Origin: Thermobispora bispora DSM 43833
Lineage (GTDB): Bacteria; Actinomycetota; Actinomycetes; Streptosporangiales; Streptosporangiaceae
NCBI RefSeq assembly: GCF_000092645.1
Contig: NC_014165.1
Coordinates: 744,001 to 808,000, forward strand
DNA length: 64,000 nucleotides
Direction of reading: 5' to 3'
Both the position numbers and the translations under genes were made by a program. This document shows, in pieces, positions 51,345-59,973 of the stretch (positions within the stretch are counted from its first letter, which is position 1; each line of letters opens with the position of its first letter). Under the pieces are notes generated by a model. That model had not been told where the DNA came from and searched no databases. It was given only the letters and a program-made list of their open reading frames with translations.

Positions 51345-51372
51345 CCGCTAGTACAGTAGCGTGAGCGCAGCC
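51345..51372. promoter_or_regulatory. Overlapping divergent -10 boxes
   Basis: TACAGT on the plus strand (51352-51357) and TACTGT on the minus strand (51358-51353) almost fully overlap inside the near-palindrome GCTAGTACAGTAGC. Both flanking genes start within 20 bp, so binding of RNA polymerase to one should exclude the other. Confidence 0.45.
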
Positions 51373-52431
51373 ATGAAGCCCTTTTCTGACTCGAGTCGAT
51401 CGAGCGAGGCGCCCGGGCGCGCCTGGCCGCCGGTCTCGGTGATCATGCCGGTGCTGAACGAGGAGCGGCACCTGCGCGAAGCCGTGCGCCGGGTCCTCGA
51501 CCAGGACTACCCGGGGCCCATCGAGGTCGTCATCAGCGTCGGCCCGTCCAAGGACCGGACCCAGGAGATCGCCGACGCGCTCGCGGCCGAGGATCCCCGG
51601 GTGATCGTGGTGTCGAACCCGACGGGGCGCACCCCCAACGGGCTGAACATCGCGATCGCCGCCTCCCATCACCCGATCGTCGCCCGCGTCGACGGGCACG
51701 CCATGCTCCCGCCGGACTACCTGCGCACCGCCGTCGAGACGCTGGAGCAGACCGGTGCCGACAACGTCGGCGGCATCATGGCGGCCGAGGGCGTCACCCC
51801 GTTCGAGCAGGCCGTGGCCTGCGCGATGACCTCGAAGATCGGGGTGGGGAACGCCCGGTTCCACACCGGAGGCCGGCCCGGGCCGGCCGACACCGTCTAC
51901 CTCGGCGTCTTCCGCCGGGAGGCGCTCGACCGCGTCGGCGGCTACGACGAGCACTTCCTGCGCGCGCAGGACTGGGAGATGAACTACCGGATCCGGGCGA
52001 CCGGCGGGCTGGTCTACTTCCAGCCGCGCATGCGGGTCTCCTACCGGCCCCGGCCGAACGTGCGGGCCCTGGCCAAGCAGTACTTCCACTACGGGCGGTG
52101 GCGGCGGGTGGTCGCCAGCACCCACCAGGGCACGCTGAACTTCCGCTACCTCGCCCCGCCGGCCCTCGTGGCGGCGGTGGTGCTCGGGCTGCTCGTCTCC
52201 CCGGTCTTCTGGCCCGGCCTGCTCATCCCCGGGGGCTACCTCGCCGCGATCCTCACGGGATCGGTGGTCACCGGCCGCAGGCTGCCCCCGGCCGCGCTGG
52301 CCTGGCTACCGGTCGCCTACGCGACCATGCACCTCTCGTGGGGCGTCGGCTTCCTCACCAGCCCGCCGAAGCTCCGCAAGCCGCGCCCCGAGCCCGAGCG
52401 GGTGAGCCTCCAGGAGCTGTTCACCGATTAG
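51373..52431 (+). CDS. Membrane-associated family 2 glycosyltransferase (ExoA-like)
   Basis: This protein has about 352 residues. The GT2 fold opens VSVIMPVLNEERHLREAV. VDGHAMLPPDYLRT is the D-x-D-like metal site, and RAQDWEMNYRIR is the acceptor base region. Two or three C-terminal helices (LVAAVVLGLLVSPVFWPGLL and following) anchor it in the membrane. It resembles ExoA-type transferases that extend lipid-linked sugars. The ATG at 51373 leaves a short leader; the in-frame GTG at 51361 is also possible. It shares its promoter region with the LCP ligase gene. Confidence 0.92.
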   Translation: MKPFSDSSRSSEAPGRAWPPVSVIMPVLNEERHLREAVRRVLDQDYPGPIEVVISVGPSKDRTQEIADALAAEDPRVIVVSNPTGRTPNGLNIAIAASHHPIVARVDGHAMLPPDYLRTAVETLEQTGADNVGGIMAAEGVTPFEQAVACAMTSKIGVGNARFHTGGRPGPADTVYLGVFRREALDRVGGYDEHFLRAQDWEMNYRIRATGGLVYFQPRMRVSYRPRPNVRALAKQYFHYGRWRRVVASTHQGTLNFRYLAPPALVAAVVLGLLVSPVFWPGLLIPGGYLAAILTGSVVTGRRLPPAALAWLPVAYATMHLSWGVGFLTSPPKLRKPRPEPERVSLQELFTD

Positions 52432-52477
52432 GCACCGGGCGGGGACGCGGCCCGGTGCGCATCGGCCGCCCGGCCGC

Positions 52478-52524
52478 GAGGGCGGCGTCCGGCGACCGGC
52501 CCTGAGGGCGGTGTCCGGCGACCG
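52478..52524. repeat. 26-bp tandem repeat, 1.8 copies
   Basis: A unit beginning GAGGGCGGCGTCCGGCG spans 52478-52503 and recurs, one base changed, at 52504-52524. It lies between converging genes. Confidence 0.82.
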
Positions 52525-52684
52525 CCGCGCGGGCGCGGCCCGGTGACCGCCCGCGCCGGCCACCGGCCGGGCCGCCCGGCGGATCCGCCCGCCACGGTCC
52601 GCGCCGCGAGGCGGGCCCGCCGGCCGGATCCGTTGCCCGCGCCGGCGCCGCGCGGCGTGCCCGCGCCGCCGGGCGACGCCGCGC

Positions 52685-54049
52685 TCAGCGCGCGAGCCGT
52701 ACCTCGGCGACCTGACCGGAGCGGCCGGAGAGCAGCAGGTCGAGGCCGGTGAGCGCGGCCTCCTCGGGCGAGCGCGGGGCCTGCGCCGGCTCCCCGGCGG
52801 GGACGCCCGCCCCGGCCGGCCGCAGCTCCACGCAGTTGACCCGCACGCCGTGCTCCGCCCACTCACCCGCGAGCGACCGCGCCAGGGCCGTCACCACGGC
52901 GCTCCCCAGCGAGCCGAGCGCGCCGCCTCCGCCGGAGGCCGCGAAGAGCAGCCCGCCCCGGGTCTCCGCCAGGTGGGCGAGCGACACGGCCGCGACCGCG
53001 ACCGGGACCCGGCAGGAGGCCGTGACCGCCTCGTCCACCACCCGATCGCCCGCCTCGGCGAGCGGGCCGCCGTACGGCACCGGCCCGGCGTGGACCACGT
53101 AGTCGATCCGCCCCGCCGCCGCGGCCGCCCGGCCGAGCGCCTCGGCGATCGCGCCGGTCTCCGGTGCGCGCAGCTCGCCGGGGGAGAGCACGTGCACCGC
53201 CGCGCCGTACCCCTTGGCGAGCCCGGCGATCAGTGAGCCGAGCCCGCTCCCGGCGTCGGCCACCACGAGCGTGCGGCCGTCCAGCCCGGCCCGCCGCTCC
53301 TCGTCGGTGAGCGGCCGGACCGCGCGGCCGGAGAGCCCGAGGAGCCGGTCGGCGATCTCGAGATCGACCGGGTGGGTGACCTTCATGTTCCGCTCGCTGC
53401 CCGGCACCAGGTGGATCGGCACGCCGGGCAGGTAGCGCAGCACGACCCCGCAGTCGTCGGTCGCCGGGCGCGCGCCGAACTCGGGGTCGGCGAACGCCCG
53501 CTCGTACGCCGTCCTGATCACCGAGAGCCGGAAGCACTGCGGGGTCTGGGCCCGCCGGAGGCGGGAGCGGTCGGGGACGTCGCCGACGACCTCGCCCTCG
53601 GGCCCCTGCTCGGCCACCAGGATCGTGTCGCTCGACGGGATGGCCACCTCGACCGCCACGTGCCGGTCGAGCGCGGCCACGCACGCGCTGAGGATCCCCG
53701 GATCGAGCAGCGGCCGCGCGGCGTCGTGGAGCAGCACGTCGCACTCCTCGTCGCCGAGCGCGCACAGGGCCCGCCAGGTGGACTCCGGGCGGGTCGCGCC
53801 CCCGGCCACCACCCGGGTGACCTTCGGGTAGCCGCGGGCGATCCGCTCGGCCTCCGCCAGGAAGCCCGGGGCCATCACCACGACCACCTCGTCGATCCCC
53901 GGATGGCCGTCGAACACGTCCAGGGTGTGCTCGAGGATCGTCTTCCCCGCGATCTCGAGAAGCTGCTTGGGGGCGCCGGCCCCGACCCGTTGCCCGATCC
54001 CGCCGGCGAGCACCACCCCGACCCGGCGCAGCCGCGATTCCGCGATCAT
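52685..54049 (-). CDS. Bifunctional cytidylyltransferase (IspD/TarI-like) fused to an SDR-like domain
   Basis: This 454-residue protein has residues 1-230 as an IspD/TarI-type cytidylyltransferase. GVVLAGGIGQRVGAGAPKQL is the CTP loop, and LLHDAARPLL and RRAQTPQCF are the product-binding motifs. All look functional. Residues about 250-454 are a Rossmann domain (TLVVADAGSGLGSLIAGLAK start, GVRVNCVEL near the end) of the SDR type. The expected Tyr-x-x-x-Lys is replaced by GSLGS, so reductase activity is doubtful. In Haemophilus a similar fusion makes CDP-ribitol. Here it could make CDP-polyol for the following genes, or be the ordinary IspD of isoprenoid synthesis. ATG 54049 has a GGGGAGGA site. 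Confidence 0.9.
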   Translation of the reverse strand: MIAESRLRRVGVVLAGGIGQRVGAGAPKQLLEIAGKTILEHTLDVFDGHPGIDEVVVVMAPGFLAEAERIARGYPKVTRVVAGGATRPESTWRALCALGDEECDVLLHDAARPLLDPGILSACVAALDRHVAVEVAIPSSDTILVAEQGPEGEVVGDVPDRSRLRRAQTPQCFRLSVIRTAYERAFADPEFGARPATDDCGVVLRYLPGVPIHLVPGSERNMKVTHPVDLEIADRLLGLSGRAVRPLTDEERRAGLDGRTLVVADAGSGLGSLIAGLAKGYGAAVHVLSPGELRAPETGAIAEALGRAAAAAGRIDYVVHAGPVPYGGPLAEAGDRVVDEAVTASCRVPVAVAAVSLAHLAETRGGLLFAASGGGGALGSLGSAVVTALARSLAGEWAEHGVRVNCVELRPAGAGVPAGEPAQAPRSPEEAALTGLDLLLSGRSGQVAEVRLAR

Positions 54050-54145
54050 GTTGTCCTCCCCGGATCCCGACCATACCGGGAGGTGAAACGGTGCAGGTGA
54101 TTGCCAGCTCGTGATCGCTCGGTTACGTTGCGGGGTGAACATCCC

Positions 54146-55669
54146 GTGACCGATGTGAAACGAGATCGCATGGAAGCGGATCCGATCCGGTCCGGTACGG
54201 CCCGCGGCGACCCGGGCGCGGAGCCCGGCACCGTCGCCGTGGTCGTGGCCACCACGCCGGTCGCGAGCCTGCCCTGCGCGGCCGGCGGCACCCTGCTCGA
54301 CCGGGTGACCGAGCAGCTCGCCATGCTGCCGATCCGCGAGGTGCACATCGTCGCCCGGGACATCGCCGGAGGCGCCGACACGGGCGCCCACGGCGTCACG
54401 GTGAGCGACGGGCTCGCCGAGGACCTGCGCACCGTCGCCAAGCTGGCGCGAACCGCCATCTCCCCCCTCGCCGTGCTCCCCGCCGACCTGCTCGCCCACA
54501 CCGAGGCCCTCGCCCTGCTGCTCGGCCACCCGGCCCGGCCGACCGGGGCCATCGTCGCCGGCGGGGCGCCCGGCCCGCTCCGCCCGCCGGTGCGGATCGA
54601 ACAGGACCGGATCGCCTCGGCCGGGACCTCGTTCCATCGCGTCGGGCAGGCGAACGCCACCTTCCGCGGGGTGCTGCTCGTGGGGCGGGACCACCTCGCC
54701 GGCCTCGCCGAGGTCGCCGAGGAGCTCGCCGACCTGGTGGCCGGCCGGAACCTCGCCGGGGTGGGCGACCACGAGCTCCCCGAGCTGCTGCTCGCCGGGC
54801 TGGTCCGCGTGGGCGTGCCGGTCAAGGCCGTCCCCATCGGCGGGCTGCACTGCACCCGGGTGGGCGACGCCGACGAGGCCGGCCGGGCGCTGCGGGAGCT
54901 CGCCGCGGTGGACGTGGACGCGGCCCGGCTCGACGCGGCGATCAAGAGCGACGACGGCTTCTTCACCACGTTCTGCGTCAGCTCGTGGTCCCGCCACCTG
55001 GTACGGCTCGCCGCCAAGGCGCACCTGACGCCGAACACGGTCACCGGCATGTCGGTGGGCCTGGCGGTCATCGCCGCCGTGTGGTTCACCGGCGGGCACC
55101 GGGGCGCGATGCTCACCGGCGCGGTCGCGCTCTACCTGTCGTTCGTGCTCGACTGCGTGGACGGCCAGCTCGCCCGGTACACCGGCCGGTTCTCGGCCCT
55201 GGGCGGCTGGCTCGACGCGATCTGCGACCGGTTGAAGGAGTTCATCGTCTACGCCGGGCTCGCCATCGGGTACCCGGGCGGCGGGGCGTGGCCGCTCGCC
55301 ATCGCCGCCCTCCTCGTGCAGGTCACCCGGCACATGGCCGACTTCGCGTACGCCGGGGCGCGCGCCGACGCCCGGCGCGACGCCCCGCGGCCGCGCCGGC
55401 CGCTCACCGTGCCCTGGGACGACGCGCCCTCCGGCGGCGCCCGGGGCGGCGCCGCGGGATCGGTGCTCGCGCTGGCGTGGCGGTTCGACGGCGGCGCCGG
55501 ATACTGGCTGAAGAAGATGATCGTGCTGCCGGTGGGGGAGCGCACCGCGGTGATCGCGGTCACCGCGGGGCTCTTCGACGCGCGGGTGACATTCCTCACC
55601 CTGCTGGGGTGGGGCCTCATCGCGCTCGCCTACACGGTGGCCGGGCGGATGGCGAGGTCCCTGGCATGA
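54146..55669 (+). CDS. Degenerate nucleotidyltransferase fused to CDP-alcohol phosphotransferase
   Basis: This protein has about 507 residues. The N-terminal 240 residues have the layout of a sugar nucleotidyltransferase, but the nucleotide loop LAAGxGxRL is missing: the equivalent strand is VAVVVATTPVASLP. The C-terminal half is a membrane CDP-alcohol phosphotransferase with several helices and the full signature DG(QL)AR-x8-G-x3-D-x3-D (DCVDGQLARYTGRFSALGG, then WLDAICD). The order of domains resembles archaeal inositol-phosphate cytidylyltransferase/DIPP synthase fusions. GTG 54146 has a GGGGTG site; ATG 54170 is an alternative. It overlaps the next gene by four bases. Confidence 0.88.
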   Translation: MTDVKRDRMEADPIRSGTARGDPGAEPGTVAVVVATTPVASLPCAAGGTLLDRVTEQLAMLPIREVHIVARDIAGGADTGAHGVTVSDGLAEDLRTVAKLARTAISPLAVLPADLLAHTEALALLLGHPARPTGAIVAGGAPGPLRPPVRIEQDRIASAGTSFHRVGQANATFRGVLLVGRDHLAGLAEVAEELADLVAGRNLAGVGDHELPELLLAGLVRVGVPVKAVPIGGLHCTRVGDADEAGRALRELAAVDVDAARLDAAIKSDDGFFTTFCVSSWSRHLVRLAAKAHLTPNTVTGMSVGLAVIAAVWFTGGHRGAMLTGAVALYLSFVLDCVDGQLARYTGRFSALGGWLDAICDRLKEFIVYAGLAIGYPGGGAWPLAIAALLVQVTRHMADFAYAGARADARRDAPRPRRPLTVPWDDAPSGGARGGAAGSVLALAWRFDGGAGYWLKKMIVLPVGERTAVIAVTAGLFDARVTFLTLLGWGLIALAYTVAGRMARSLA

Positions 55670-56289
55670 CGTCGGTGTATCTCGCGCCGGTGCCGCGGAG
55701 CACGGTGGCCGCGCAGCGCGACGACGGCCCGCTGGCCGCGGCGATGGGCCGGCTGGTCCTCGGGCAGATCCCGCCGCTCCCGCCCGTGATCGCCGCCGCG
55801 TTCGTGACCGGGGCGCTGCTGCTGCTCGGGGTGACGGGCGCCGACGACTTCAGCGTCTTCGCCCCCGCCGTGGTCCTGCTGCTCGCCGGGGCGGGGAGCT
55901 CGCACCCGCACGACGGGCGGCTCGACTGGCTGGTCCCCCCGGTCCTGCGGCTCACCGAGTACGGCTTCGTGGCCTCGCTCGGCTTCGGCCGGTCGGTGCC
56001 GCCGGTGCTGATCGCCCTGCTGATCGGGGCGATCGCCTTCCACCACTACGACCTGGTCCACCGGCTGCGGCAGCGGGTGTACCCGCCGTCCTGGCTCGCC
56101 GCCGCCGGCCTGGGCTGGGACGGGCGGATGCTCCTCATCGCCTTCGGCGGCCTGCTCGACCTGGTCCCCTTCGTGTTCGCGGTGCTCGCCGTCTACCTGT
56201 GGGGTCTGTTCGGCTGGGAGAGCCTCACCGCGTGGCTGGCCGCCCCGGGGTCGGGGAACGCGGCGGCCGACGCGGACGTCCAAGAGTGA
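55666..56289 (+). CDS. Multi-pass membrane protein of unknown function (DUF5941-like)
   Basis: This 207-residue protein has at least four hydrophobic segments (VIAAAFVTGALLLLGVTG; FAPAVVLLLAGAG; PVLIALLIGAIAF; VPFVFAVLAVYLWGLFG). A conserved-looking polar stretch AFHHYDLVHRLRQR in the middle carries two adjacent His. It is translationally coupled to the phosphotransferase fusion (ATGA), so it probably works in the same membrane step. I recognise it as a family often found beside such fusions but know no function. Confidence 0.75.
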   Translation: MTSVYLAPVPRSTVAAQRDDGPLAAAMGRLVLGQIPPLPPVIAAAFVTGALLLLGVTGADDFSVFAPAVVLLLAGAGSSHPHDGRLDWLVPPVLRLTEYGFVASLGFGRSVPPVLIALLIGAIAFHHYDLVHRLRQRVYPPSWLAAAGLGWDGRMLLIAFGGLLDLVPFVFAVLAVYLWGLFGWESLTAWLAAPGSGNAAADADVQE

Positions 56290-56378
56290 CGATGGGCGTC
56301 ACACCTTGCCCAGGTATTACCGAAAGCGCACTAACCTTTGAGGCTAGCCGCCGATGCTCGACCTCAAGGAGACGGAAA

Positions 56379-57110
56379 TTGCTCGGAATGGTGCTGGCTG
56401 CGGGAGCGGGGCGCCGTCTGCGGCCGTACACGGACACCCTGCCCAAGGCGCTGGTGCCCGTCGACGGTGAGACCACCATCCTCGACATAGCCCTGCGCAA
56501 CCTCGCCGCGGTGGATCTCCGCGAGGTGGTGGTCGTCGTCGGCTACCAGGCCCAGGCGGTCCGCGACCGGCAGGCCGACCTGGAGCGCCGTCACGGAGTG
56601 CGGCTCACCCTCGTCCACAACGACAAGGCCGAGGAGTGGAACAACGCGTACTCCCTCTGGTGCGCGCGCGACTACTTCGGCGAGGGCGTGCTGCTGGTGA
56701 ACGGCGACACGGTCCACCCGGTATCGGTCGAGCAGGCGCTGCTCTCCTCCGAGGAGCCCGCCGACATCCTCCTCGCCGTGGACACCGTGAAGAAGCTCGC
56801 CGACGAGGAGATGAAGGTCACCGTCGAGGGCGGGCACCTGAAGCGGATCACCAAGCTCATGGACCCCGCCGAGGCCTACGGCGAGTACATCGGGGCGACG
56901 CTCATCCGCCCGGGCGCGGCCGAGCGGCTCGCCGACGCGCTGCGGGCCACGTTCGAGCGGGACCCGCAGCTCTACTACGAGGACGGCTACCAGGAGATGG
57001 TCGACCGCGGGGAGAAGATCGCCCTCGTGCCGATCGGCGAGGTCGACTGGGTCGAGGTGGACGACCACGCCGACCTGGAGAAGGCCCGCCGGATCGCCGC
57101 CGGTTACTGA
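56379..57110 (+). CDS. Sugar/polyol-phosphate nucleotidyltransferase
   Basis: This protein has about 243 residues. MVLAAGAGRRLRPYTDTLPK is the complete nucleotide loop, with the Lys of the PK motif. VVVVGYQAQAVRD and GVLLVNGDTVHP (metal Asp) follow, and YYEDGYQEMVD with VDWVEVDDHADLEKA closes the fold. The likely start is TTG 56379, seven bases after AGGAG. An ATG three codons later lacks a spaced site. Similar enzymes activate inositol-1-phosphate or choline-phosphate with CTP, or hexose-1-phosphates. The neighbours favour a CDP-activated alcohol. Confidence 0.9.
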   Translation: MLGMVLAAGAGRRLRPYTDTLPKALVPVDGETTILDIALRNLAAVDLREVVVVVGYQAQAVRDRQADLERRHGVRLTLVHNDKAEEWNNAYSLWCARDYFGEGVLLVNGDTVHPVSVEQALLSSEEPADILLAVDTVKKLADEEMKVTVEGGHLKRITKLMDPAEAYGEYIGATLIRPGAAERLADALRATFERDPQLYYEDGYQEMVDRGEKIALVPIGEVDWVEVDDHADLEKARRIAAGY

Positions 57111-57139
57111 CCCGGCCGTGACGTGACCGAGGAGTTCTC

Positions 57140-58198
57140 ATGCCGATTCTGGCAAGGATGCTCCCCACCCCCCTCACGGTCGAGGTCAGGCGGGGAGCGG
57201 TCGCACAGCTGGGTTCGCTGCTCGCCGACAGCCGGATCGCCACCTCCGGGCGGGTCGCCGTCGCGGTCGGCGTGAACCTGGGCGACCGGGTGGCCCAGGC
57301 CATCGCCCCGTCGCTCGGCGAGGCCCAGGTCTTCCGGGTGCCCGAGGCCACCGTGGACGCGGCGGTCTCGCTCGGCGCGGAGCTGCGCAAGGGCGCCTAC
57401 GAGGCGGTGATCGGGATCGGCGGGGGCAAGACGATCGACGCCACGAAGTACGCCGCCTCGCTCGCCGGGATCCCGATGGTGGCCGTGGCCACCAACCTCT
57501 CGCACGACGGCATCTGCTCGCCGGTGGCCTCGCTCGTCCACGACGGCGGGAAGGGCTCCTTCGGCGTGCCCATGCCGCTGGCCATCATGGTGGACCTCGA
57601 CTTCGTCCATGACGCCCCGCCCGCGCTGGTGCGCGCCGGCATCGGCGACGTGCTCAGCAACCTCTCCGCGATCGAGGACTGGCAGCTCGGCAACGCGGAG
57701 CGCGGGGAGCCCATCGACGGCCTCGCCGTCGCCATGGCCCGGACGGCCGCGGAGGCCGTGCTCCAGCGGCCGGACTCGATCGAGTCGGACGCCTTCCTCA
57801 CCGTGCTCGCCGAGTCGCTGATCCTCTCCGGCATCTCGATGGTCATAGCCGGGTCAAGCCGCCCTGCGAGCGGGGGAGATCATGAGATCCTGCATGCCGT
57901 GGATCAGCTCTTCCCCGGGACCTCCAACCACGGCGAGCTGGCCGGGATCGGCACGGCGTTCTGCTTCTTCCTCCGGCAGGACCGGACCCGGCTCGATCAG
58001 GTGGTCGGCTGCCTGCGCCGGCACGGCTTACCCGTGGCACCCGGTGACGTCGGGCTGACGGTGGATCAGTTCACCGCGGCCGTCGCGCTCGCCCCGAGCA
58101 CGCGACCCGGCCGCTATACGATCCTCGAGCATCTAAGGCTGTCGGAAAGCGAGATCAGGGCGAAGGTAGAGGACTATGTCCGCGCCGTCGGTCGCTGA
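57140..58198 (+). CDS. Iron-containing alcohol dehydrogenase, sn-glycerol-1-phosphate dehydrogenase-like
   Basis: This 352-residue protein has VIGIGGGKTIDATKYAA as the NAD(P) loop near residue 93. TNLSHDGICSPVAS is the phosphate/substrate segment typical of archaeal EgsA and Bacillus AraM. Metal ligands are visible as the Asp in RAGIGDVLSN, the His in SRPASGGDHEILH and the His in SNHGELAGIG. It should reduce dihydroxyacetone phosphate to sn-glycerol-1-phosphate, supplying an alcohol for CDP activation. It overlaps the next gene by 23 bases. Confidence 0.88.
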   Translation: MPILARMLPTPLTVEVRRGAVAQLGSLLADSRIATSGRVAVAVGVNLGDRVAQAIAPSLGEAQVFRVPEATVDAAVSLGAELRKGAYEAVIGIGGGKTIDATKYAASLAGIPMVAVATNLSHDGICSPVASLVHDGGKGSFGVPMPLAIMVDLDFVHDAPPALVRAGIGDVLSNLSAIEDWQLGNAERGEPIDGLAVAMARTAAEAVLQRPDSIESDAFLTVLAESLILSGISMVIAGSSRPASGGDHEILHAVDQLFPGTSNHGELAGIGTAFCFFLRQDRTRLDQVVGCLRRHGLPVAPGDVGLTVDQFTAAVALAPSTRPGRYTILEHLRLSESEIRAKVEDYVRAVGR

Positions 58199-58934
58199 GC
58201 TTCGCGCCGTCGCTCAGCCGCAGAGCACGATGGACCGGCGCAGTGGCGAGCACTGGGCCGGTCTGTTGTACATGCGCCGCCTCTCGATCTACGTGACGTG
58301 GCTGCTGGCGAAGACGCCGATCACCCCCAACCAGGTCACCGGTCTGATGATCGTGTGCGGCGTGGCGGCCGGGGCGGTCCTGGCGCTGCCGGGCCTCTGG
58401 GCGGCGCTGGCCTGCGCCCTGCTGGTCCAGCTCTATCTGCTCTTCGACTGCTCCGACGGTGAACTGGCGCGGTGGACCGGCCGTACCTCGGTCAAGGGCG
58501 TCTACCTCGACCGGGTCGGGCACTACTTCGCGGAGGCCGCGCTGCTCATCGGCCTGGGCTTCCGCGCCGCCGAGACCGCGCCCGACTGGTACACGGTGCT
58601 CGGCTTCGCCGCGGCGCTCGGCGCGATCCTCATCAAGGCCGAGACCGACCTGGTCGACGTCGCCCGGGCGCGCTCCGGTCTCGCCGCGGCGACCGAGGCC
58701 GCGGCCGAGCAGTTCGCCTCCCGGTCCCTCGGGCTGGCCAGGAAGATCGTCGCGGCGCTCCGCTTCCACCGGGTCATCCAGGCCGTCGAGCTGTCGTTGA
58801 TCGTCGTCATCGCAGCCCTGCTCGACCCGTGGTTCCCGGCGACCCGCGTGCTGGTCGTCGCCTGCGCCGTCATCGCGGGGGTCCAGCTCGTGCTGCACCT
58901 GGTGAGCATTCTCGCTTCGCGGCGGTTGTCATGA
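58176..58934 (+). CDS. CDP-alcohol phosphotransferase with altered signature
   Basis: This 252-residue membrane enzyme has about six helices. The family signature runs DGELAR-x8-G-VYL-D-RVG-H: the first three Asp are present, but the fourth, normally the proposed general base, is His. TPITPNQVTGLMIVCGV before the first long helix is typical. The start ATG lies inside the dehydrogenase gene. The usual reaction is transfer of a phospho-alcohol from a CDP-linked donor to an acceptor alcohol. The change may alter acceptor or mechanism, but the enzyme is otherwise well conserved. Confidence 0.92.
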   Translation: MSAPSVAELRAVAQPQSTMDRRSGEHWAGLLYMRRLSIYVTWLLAKTPITPNQVTGLMIVCGVAAGAVLALPGLWAALACALLVQLYLLFDCSDGELARWTGRTSVKGVYLDRVGHYFAEAALLIGLGFRAAETAPDWYTVLGFAAALGAILIKAETDLVDVARARSGLAAATEAAAEQFASRSLGLARKIVAALRFHRVIQAVELSLIVVIAALLDPWFPATRVLVVACAVIAGVQLVLHLVSILASRRLS

Positions 58935-59098
58935 TCGAAGTAATGCGGATTTCACAGCGGTCCGGCATCGGCTCGGCCGGTGTTCCTATAACCTTGTTCA
59001 GCAATACACCAGCCAGATATCGGGTGATCCGGCCGAACGGACTCGGTGATCATGAAGTCGTGTTCATTCCGCCCAGTCTCGAGGCGATGACGCGGTGA
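58931..59098 (+). CDS. Possible 55-residue protein overlapping both neighbours
   Basis: An open frame starts ATG ATC GAA inside the preceding stop (ATGA) and ends in the TGA that overlaps the GTG of the next gene (GTGA). Both overlaps are four bases, the pattern of translational coupling. The protein (MIEVMRISQRSGIG start, PPSLEAMTR end) has no known domain, no Cys and no membrane segment. GC is clearly lower than around it (roughly 56%), with codons such as ATA, AGA and GTA. It might therefore instead be a promoter-bearing spacer. Confidence 0.5.
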   Translation: MIEVMRISQRSGIGSAGVPITLFSNTPARYRVIRPNGLGDHEVVFIPPSLEAMTR

Positions 59099-59973
59099 AG
59101 ATCTCCTGTGTCATCCTCACCATGGGCGACAGGATCGCCGAGCTCGACCGTGCGGTCCAATCCGCGCTGTCGCAGACCGACGACGTCGAAGTCGTGATCG
59201 TCGGCAACGGCGCGGACGTGCCCGAGATCACGGCCCGGCCGCAGCCGGGATCCGCATCGACGATCAAGAAGATCCGGCTCGAGCGCAACGCCGGCATCCC
59301 CGAGGGCCGTAACCGGGGTGTCCAGGAGTGCACCGGCGACATCGTCATGTTCCTCGACGATGACGGCTGGTACGCCAGCCCGAAGATCGCCGCGCACGTT
59401 CGGGAACGATTCATGCGGGAGCCGGACCTCGCCGTGCTCTCCTTCCGGGTCATGGACCCCGAGGGCGGCTCCGTGCAGCGGCGGCACGTGCCGCGGCTCC
59501 GCGCCGGGGACCCCGAGCGGTCCTCGCCGGTGACGACGTTCCTCGGGGGCGCCTGCGCGATCCGGAAGTCGGCGTTCCTCCAGGTCGGCGGTCTTCCGGA
59601 GCGGTTCTTCTACGCCCACGAGGAGACCGACCTGGCCTGGCGGCTGCTCGGCGAGGGCTACCGCATCGAGTACGACGCGGAGACCGTGATGTACCACCCG
59701 CTGGTGCTGCCCCAGCGGCACCCGGAGTACTACCGGTACAACGCGCGCAACCGGGTCTGGCTCGCCCGCCGGAACCTGCCGTGGCCGCTCGCCGTGATCT
59801 ACCTGACCAACTGGATTCTGCTGACCCTGATCCGCGAGCGGTCGCTGCCCGCGCTCAAGGCGTGGTTCGGCGGGTTCATCGAGGGCATCCGGGAGCCGGC
59901 CGGCGAACGCCGCCCGATGGCGTGGAAGACCGCCTGGAAGATGCTCCGGCTCGGCCGCCCGCCGATCGTCTAG
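59095..59973 (+). CDS. Family 2 glycosyltransferase
   Basis: This 292-residue protein has ISCVILTMGDRIAELDRAVQ as the start of a GT-A fold. IVMFLDDDGWYASP is the metal-binding D-x-D motif, and FYAHEETDLAWRLL carries the E-D acceptor-base pair. A hydrophobic C-terminal segment (AVIYLTNWILLTLI) may associate with the membrane. The GTG overlaps the stop of the small preceding frame. As the last gene of the run, it may add a sugar to the phospho-alcohol product. Confidence 0.93.
   Translation: MKISCVILTMGDRIAELDRAVQSALSQTDDVEVVIVGNGADVPEITARPQPGSASTIKKIRLERNAGIPEGRNRGVQECTGDIVMFLDDDGWYASPKIAAHVRERFMREPDLAVLSFRVMDPEGGSVQRRHVPRLRAGDPERSSPVTTFLGGACAIRKSAFLQVGGLPERFFYAHEETDLAWRLLGEGYRIEYDAETVMYHPLVLPQRHPEYYRYNARNRVWLARRNLPWPLAVIYLTNWILLTLIRERSLPALKAWFGGFIEGIREPAGERRPMAWKTAWKMLRLGRPPIV

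Follow-up and report, generated by a model that had tools for sequence, protein, structure and literature searches.

The closest described counterpart of the protein analysed here is the bifunctional CDP-ribitol synthase of Haemophilus influenzae (Acs1/Bcs1), in which an IspD/TarI-type cytidylyltransferase domain is followed by an SDR domain (PMC10918830, PMC4873967); the fusion described below has this architecture too. The first domain has two single-function models. IspD is the MEP cytidylyltransferase; in the E. coli enzyme residues G18, R20, K27, G82, D106, R109 and K213 are strictly conserved, R157 is added to this set, and Ala163 is among the active-site residues that are highly conserved in IspDs (PMC11770629). 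TarI is the ribitol-5-phosphate cytidylyltransferase. Human ISPD (CRPPA), which is IspD-like and also has a second domain, makes CDP-ribitol and not CDP-methylerythritol (CDP-ME) (PMC4873967).

The stretch of DNA that we analysed (the window, 64,000 nt of the 4,189,976 bp genome of Thermobispora bispora, G000) carries on its minus strand a cytidylyltransferase-SDR fusion gene at 52685..54049, with its ATG at 54049 and its stop at 52685, coding for 454 amino acids. Pfam recognises IspD at residues 12-237 (173.5 bits) and adh_short_C2 at residues 257-408 (35.7 bits). The IspD/TarI-type half spans residues 9-240 (53330..54025, minus strand); the SDR half, degenerate as judged from the Pfam match, the alignment and the rate of change, spans residues 257-454 (52688..53281, minus strand). 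A first-pass annotation made from the sequence alone had called the gene a cytidylyltransferase joined to an SDR and akin to the Haemophilus-type enzyme: its frame, strand and coordinates are right, the two domains are those found by Pfam, and the domain order is the same. An 882-aa reading frame at 52685-55333, delimited mechanically, was rejected as the gene, the extension being a high-G+C shadow frame opposite the divergent neighbour. Enzymes of the CDP-ribitol synthase type bear the PGAP name 'bifunctional cytidylyltransferase/SDR family oxidoreductase'; the T. bispora protein is homologous, along 89% of its length, to a Parabacteroides distasonis fusion of that name.

It departs from a bifunctional CDP-ribitol synthase in the second half, which has neither Tyr-x-x-x-Lys nor an intact Gly-rich loop. 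In an alignment of 16 Streptosporangiaceae fusions, the YSSTK, YSSSK or YSSAK of the intact relatives falls exactly over GSLGS (residues 379-383; 52901..52915, minus strand), and their GGSYGIG nucleotide loop is replaced by DAGSGLG (residues 265-271; 53237..53257, minus strand), as the first-pass annotation had read both sites. VVNTA of the intact relatives has become VVHAG (residues 318-322), and a 6-residue deletion precedes the lost motif; the Tyr, the Lys, the Asn position and the first Gly of the loop are all gone. The same annotation had set against its own reading a shifted alignment with a restored Tyr/Lys pair. This was rejected: there is no Y...K anywhere in the 454-aa protein, and residues 240-454 hold a single Lys (K279) and three Tyr (281, 317 and 326), all out of register. 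Structure prediction, which it had proposed as a check, gave an AlphaFold2 model of the fusion with a mean pLDDT of 88.9, in which the Rossmann order is kept and helix 376-396 runs unbroken across the lost motif. With both domains taken together, human ISPD (PDB 4cvh) ranks first among the fold matches (476 columns, TMq 0.49), at an identity of 16% and with a different domain orientation (rmsd 11). The second domain of human ISPD we take to be also a non-catalytic SDR relative. The SDR half of the T. bispora fusion is most likely a dead reductase, without a redox role.

The first half, by comparison with E. coli IspD, keeps all the active-site residues (G19, R21, K28, G83, D109, R112, T142, R161, T197 and K223), in agreement with the earlier statement that its CTP and product motifs are preserved. 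Its score with TIGR00453 (the NCBIfam ispD model) is 178 bits, just under the cut-off of 181.3. The best PDB matches of the T. bispora fusion protein are MEP IspDs; those of an intact fusion from G040, a genome that also has a canonical ispD, are TarIs. Eleven columns set TarI and the intact fusions apart from canonical IspDs, and T. bispora keeps six of them, the changes being V111A, R118G, D134E, I155V and G167A. Four of these are its own, since E134 is common to the sister. V111A and G167A both turn a TarI-type residue into an IspD-type one: Ala111 lies in HDAARP (residues 108-113; 53711..53728, minus strand), where MEP IspDs have Ala and TarI and the intact fusions have Val; Ala167, in RRAQTPQ (residues 165-171; 53537..53557, minus strand), stands where TarI and the intact fusions have Gly and corresponds to Ala163 of E. 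coli IspD (matched by counting from Arg157). With TarI the protein shares LAGG, Q29, C200 and N221; it differs from TarI by these two Ala residues and by having no TarJ-type reductase partner.

To place the enzyme, a tree of 75 first-half domains was computed (family proteins, actinobacterial fusions, canonical IspDs and others). It separates the canonical IspDs, with a support of 100/99, from a side on which the proteins of the family and the fusions of actinobacteria stand together with four TarIs and two fusions from other phyla. The T. bispora enzyme falls in this TarI/CDP-ribitol-synthase clade, beside Sphaerimonospora (98/85). Within the clade the finer branching has weak support, and a topology that groups the family proteins with the fusions to the exclusion of TarI cannot be rejected (p-AU 0.191). 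Unlike IspD, the T. bispora enzyme belongs to the TarI/fusion clade, is encoded away from carD-ispF and has an SDR half. Because the clade includes proven ribitol-5-phosphate enzymes, the argument for MEP activity rests on the status of the fusion as the sole copy.

A PF01128 search of the T. bispora genome returned the fusion protein and GlmU and nothing else, which makes the fusion the only IspD-type enzyme of the genome, another difference from the bifunctional CDP-ribitol synthases. A second, canonical ispD was rejected on this result and for lack of room between carD and ispF. There the gap is 26 nt, and it ranges from 6 to 112 nt across the Streptosporangiaceae with a clean measurement (for the draft contig G029 the value came out negative); elsewhere it is 690-2200 nt, and other actinobacteria keep ispD in between. 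It is also short in the families of G037 (135 nt) and G046 (43 nt). In G053 it is 1311 nt long and is filled by a reading frame of 375 aa other than ispD, and the only IspD-type protein of that genome is an intact fusion. At least five Streptosporangiaceae genomes likewise have an intact fusion as their sole IspD-type copy. The MEP-pathway search took in Dxr, IspE, IspF and IspG, and all four were found in T. bispora. HMG-CoA reductase was looked for in the genome and not found, and the mevalonate route was rejected on that ground. T. bispora produces the menaquinone MK-9 (PMC3035289), and therefore the organism must make isoprenoids. In the openly accessible literature no report of ispD loss in Streptosporangiaceae was found.

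The SDR motif is intact in the sister Sphaerimonospora (YSSSK; genome G034, Sphaerimonospora thailandensis), in ten Microbispora records and in Planotetraspora. Since the sister genus and Microbispora have it, its loss in T. bispora is recent. Dead motifs were seen in eight genomes among those read. Two first-half trees call for several separate losses, with 8 and 6 changes, of which at least 4 and 3 are forced by well-supported branches; on an SDR-only tree some of the dead rows are joined, with long branches. Similar losses took place several times over in the Streptosporangiaceae. The terminal branch of the SDR half is 1.04 for T. bispora versus 0.119 for the sister (8.7 times), that of the first half 0.307 versus 0.072, and those of seven neighbour genes 0.07-0.28 versus 0.05-0.39. 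Identity of the SDR half at codon positions 1, 2 and 3 is 0.69/0.63/0.57 between T. bispora and the sister and 0.86/0.88/0.66 between intact relatives; in T. bispora, divergence at positions 1 and 2 nears that at position 3. The amino-acid identity of this half to the sister, 0.465, is above the 0.35 ± 0.024 obtained in a neutral simulation, so that some constraint persists in weakened form. Little can be read from the open frame, which has a 15% chance of staying stop-free under drift (simulation). A plain pseudogene was rejected for the SDR half, since the constraint that is left argues against drift alone; at this G+C the length without a stop tells nothing either way.

The gene belongs to a cluster with a family-wide order: LCP - GT2 - (X) - fusion - CDP-alcohol transferase - DUF5941 - nucleotidyltransferase - G1PDH - CDP-alcohol transferase - GT2. 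Its conserved neighbours in the window, all on the plus strand, are a GT2 glycosyltransferase (51361..52431), a divergent CDP-alcohol phosphatidyltransferase (54101..55669), a DUF5941 membrane protein (55666..56289), a separate nucleotidyltransferase (56388..57110) and a glycerol-1-phosphate-dehydrogenase-type enzyme (G1PDH; 57140..58198). The cluster is conserved whether the cytidylyltransferase gene is fused, dead or unfused, and relatives without any SDR half keep the first half in the same surroundings. Gene X codes for a protein of 540-720 aa distantly similar to PF04464 polyol-phosphate transferases. It adjoins all of the intact fusions scored (9/9) and stands beside all the motif-intact loci of Sphaerimonospora, Microbispora and Planotetraspora. 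It is missing beside seven dead or unfused copies of the fusion clade, T. bispora included, where only a gap (52432..52684) marks its position; this absence of a polyol-phosphate transferase neighbour also sets the locus apart from a bifunctional CDP-ribitol synthase. Gene X is still found beside two dead-SDR loci (G022 and G003). Its association with the SDR state (Fisher p 0.002, kinship between genomes ignored) is suggestive only, because the genomes are related. The first-pass annotation had looked elsewhere for the polyol, for example to the dehydrogenase at 57.1 kb. This idea found no support, as the gene is kept with the SDR intact, dead or absent: both the G1PDH and the 56.4 kb nucleotidyltransferase are present whatever the SDR state and hence are not compensating, and the dehydrogenase as a substitute reductase was rejected.

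A few other features of these loci were recorded. The part of the cluster at 54101-59973 (two CDP-alcohol transferases, DUF5941, nucleotidyltransferase, G1PDH and GT2) is kept family-wide, with a G1PDH identity of 81-86% in most nearer relatives; the conservation of G1PDH suggests that these bacteria have an envelope molecule containing sn-glycerol-1-phosphate. The N-terminal ~290 aa of the CDP-alcohol transferase at 54101-55669 are without a Pfam match, and its layout resembles that of inositol-phosphate cytidylyltransferase/transferase fusions. Two genomes have two copies of the cytidylyltransferase gene, G010 (L103, L108) and G022 (L091, L092); in both, the copy inside the cluster has either no SDR half or a dead one, and the second copy, next to gene X, is an intact fusion. 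In G011 (L126) two divergent unfused cytidylyltransferases lie in the same cluster, one of them on a branch of 1.88. Elsewhere in T. bispora there are a second DUF5941 copy (L144, G000:1336270-1336812) and two full PF04464 proteins (L142, G000:697001-698041; L143, G000:3497509-3498615), so other polyol-phosphate chemistry remains in the organism; L142 sits among long glycosyltransferases and adjoins a CDP-alcohol transferase.

We consider it probable that the T. bispora fusion is the MEP-pathway cytidylyltransferase (the IspD step) with a vestigial reductase half, and that it stems from a replacement of ispD by an enzyme of the TarI/CDP-ribitol-synthase type; this view of its activity, history and vestigial part is drawn from the sole copy, the intact active site, the lost SDR motifs, the missing ispD locus and the clade. 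The first half would convert CTP and MEP to CDP-ME. The usual ispD would have been lost across the Streptosporangiaceae, an enzyme of the TarI/CDP-ribitol-synthase clade taking over the step. Where relatives have kept the SDR intact, CDP-ME and CDP-ribitol may both come from one enzyme, the latter product by reduction of ribulose-5-phosphate and then cytidylylation of ribitol-5-phosphate. In the Thermobispora lineage, loss of the downstream polyol-phosphate transferase would have ended the need for ribitol-5-phosphate and the reductase would then have decayed; the cytidylyltransferase half would have been kept because isoprenoids depend on it, and would have shifted towards IspD at residues 111 and 167. 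As a counterpoint, the MEP step could be carried out by a nucleotidyltransferase that escaped recognition.

The fate of the SDR half can be viewed otherwise. It might be catalytically dead but needed, as a module that helps the cytidylyltransferase to fold, to dimerise or to stay stable in the heat: the high-confidence Rossmann model and the open frame, the identity above neutral expectation, the persistence of dead halves in the eight genomes and the comparable two-domain organisation of human ISPD, the top fold match, all go in that direction. We nevertheless find this doubtful, since G012 and G015, from the same clade, and most genomes of the family do without an SDR half, the SDR branch is long, divergence at codon positions 1 and 2 nears that at position 3, and an open frame means little given its chance under drift. 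That the half has kept a redox activity through some unusual mechanism that needs neither Tyr nor Lys could account for the residual constraint, but is hardly credible when both these residues, the Asn position and the first Gly of the loop have all gone and a 6-residue deletion is added.

Other readings concern the substrate. An enzyme with two duties, serving the MEP pathway and also a cluster-specific alcohol phosphate, would stay in the cluster for that reason; even unfused versions do keep this position, and the intact fusion is the sole IspD-type copy in the five or more family genomes mentioned above. The situation in G010 and G022, with an unfused or dead copy in the cluster and an intact fusion elsewhere by gene X, suggests instead a division of labour, which makes two duties rather unlikely; the copy pairs of these genomes are a natural control for such a division. 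It seems quite improbable that the protein is still a CDP-polyol synthase for a wall polymer, fed with ribitol- or glycerol-phosphate by a different enzyme, for instance the 57.1 kb dehydrogenase. The MEP pathway would then be without any IspD-type protein; moreover, the polyol-phosphate transferase neighbour is gone, and so are the TarI-type V111, R118 and G167. The dehydrogenase is present regardless of the SDR state, and a separate nucleotidyltransferase already belongs to the cluster. All this stands against what the TarI clade and the conserved envelope-type cluster (LCP protein, glycosyltransferases, CDP-alcohol transferases) would lead one to expect.

If the T. bispora fusion is indeed the MEP-pathway cytidylyltransferase, a cell-wall enzyme would have taken the place of an essential housekeeping enzyme that shares its fold, and automatic annotation as a CDP-ribitol enzyme or an SDR oxidoreductase would hide the organism's only IspD. 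Residues 111 and 167 make the question of the IspD or TarI substrate testable, and the intact, dead and lost reductase halves form a natural series leading from a bifunctional to a monofunctional enzyme. For the family as a whole, we give about even chances to a wider reading in which ispD was lost and a CDP-ribitol-synthase-type enzyme took on its step, the intact fusions feed both isoprenoids and a ribitol-phosphate polymer, and loss of the polymer leads to repeated decay of the reductase and to convergence on IspD residues.
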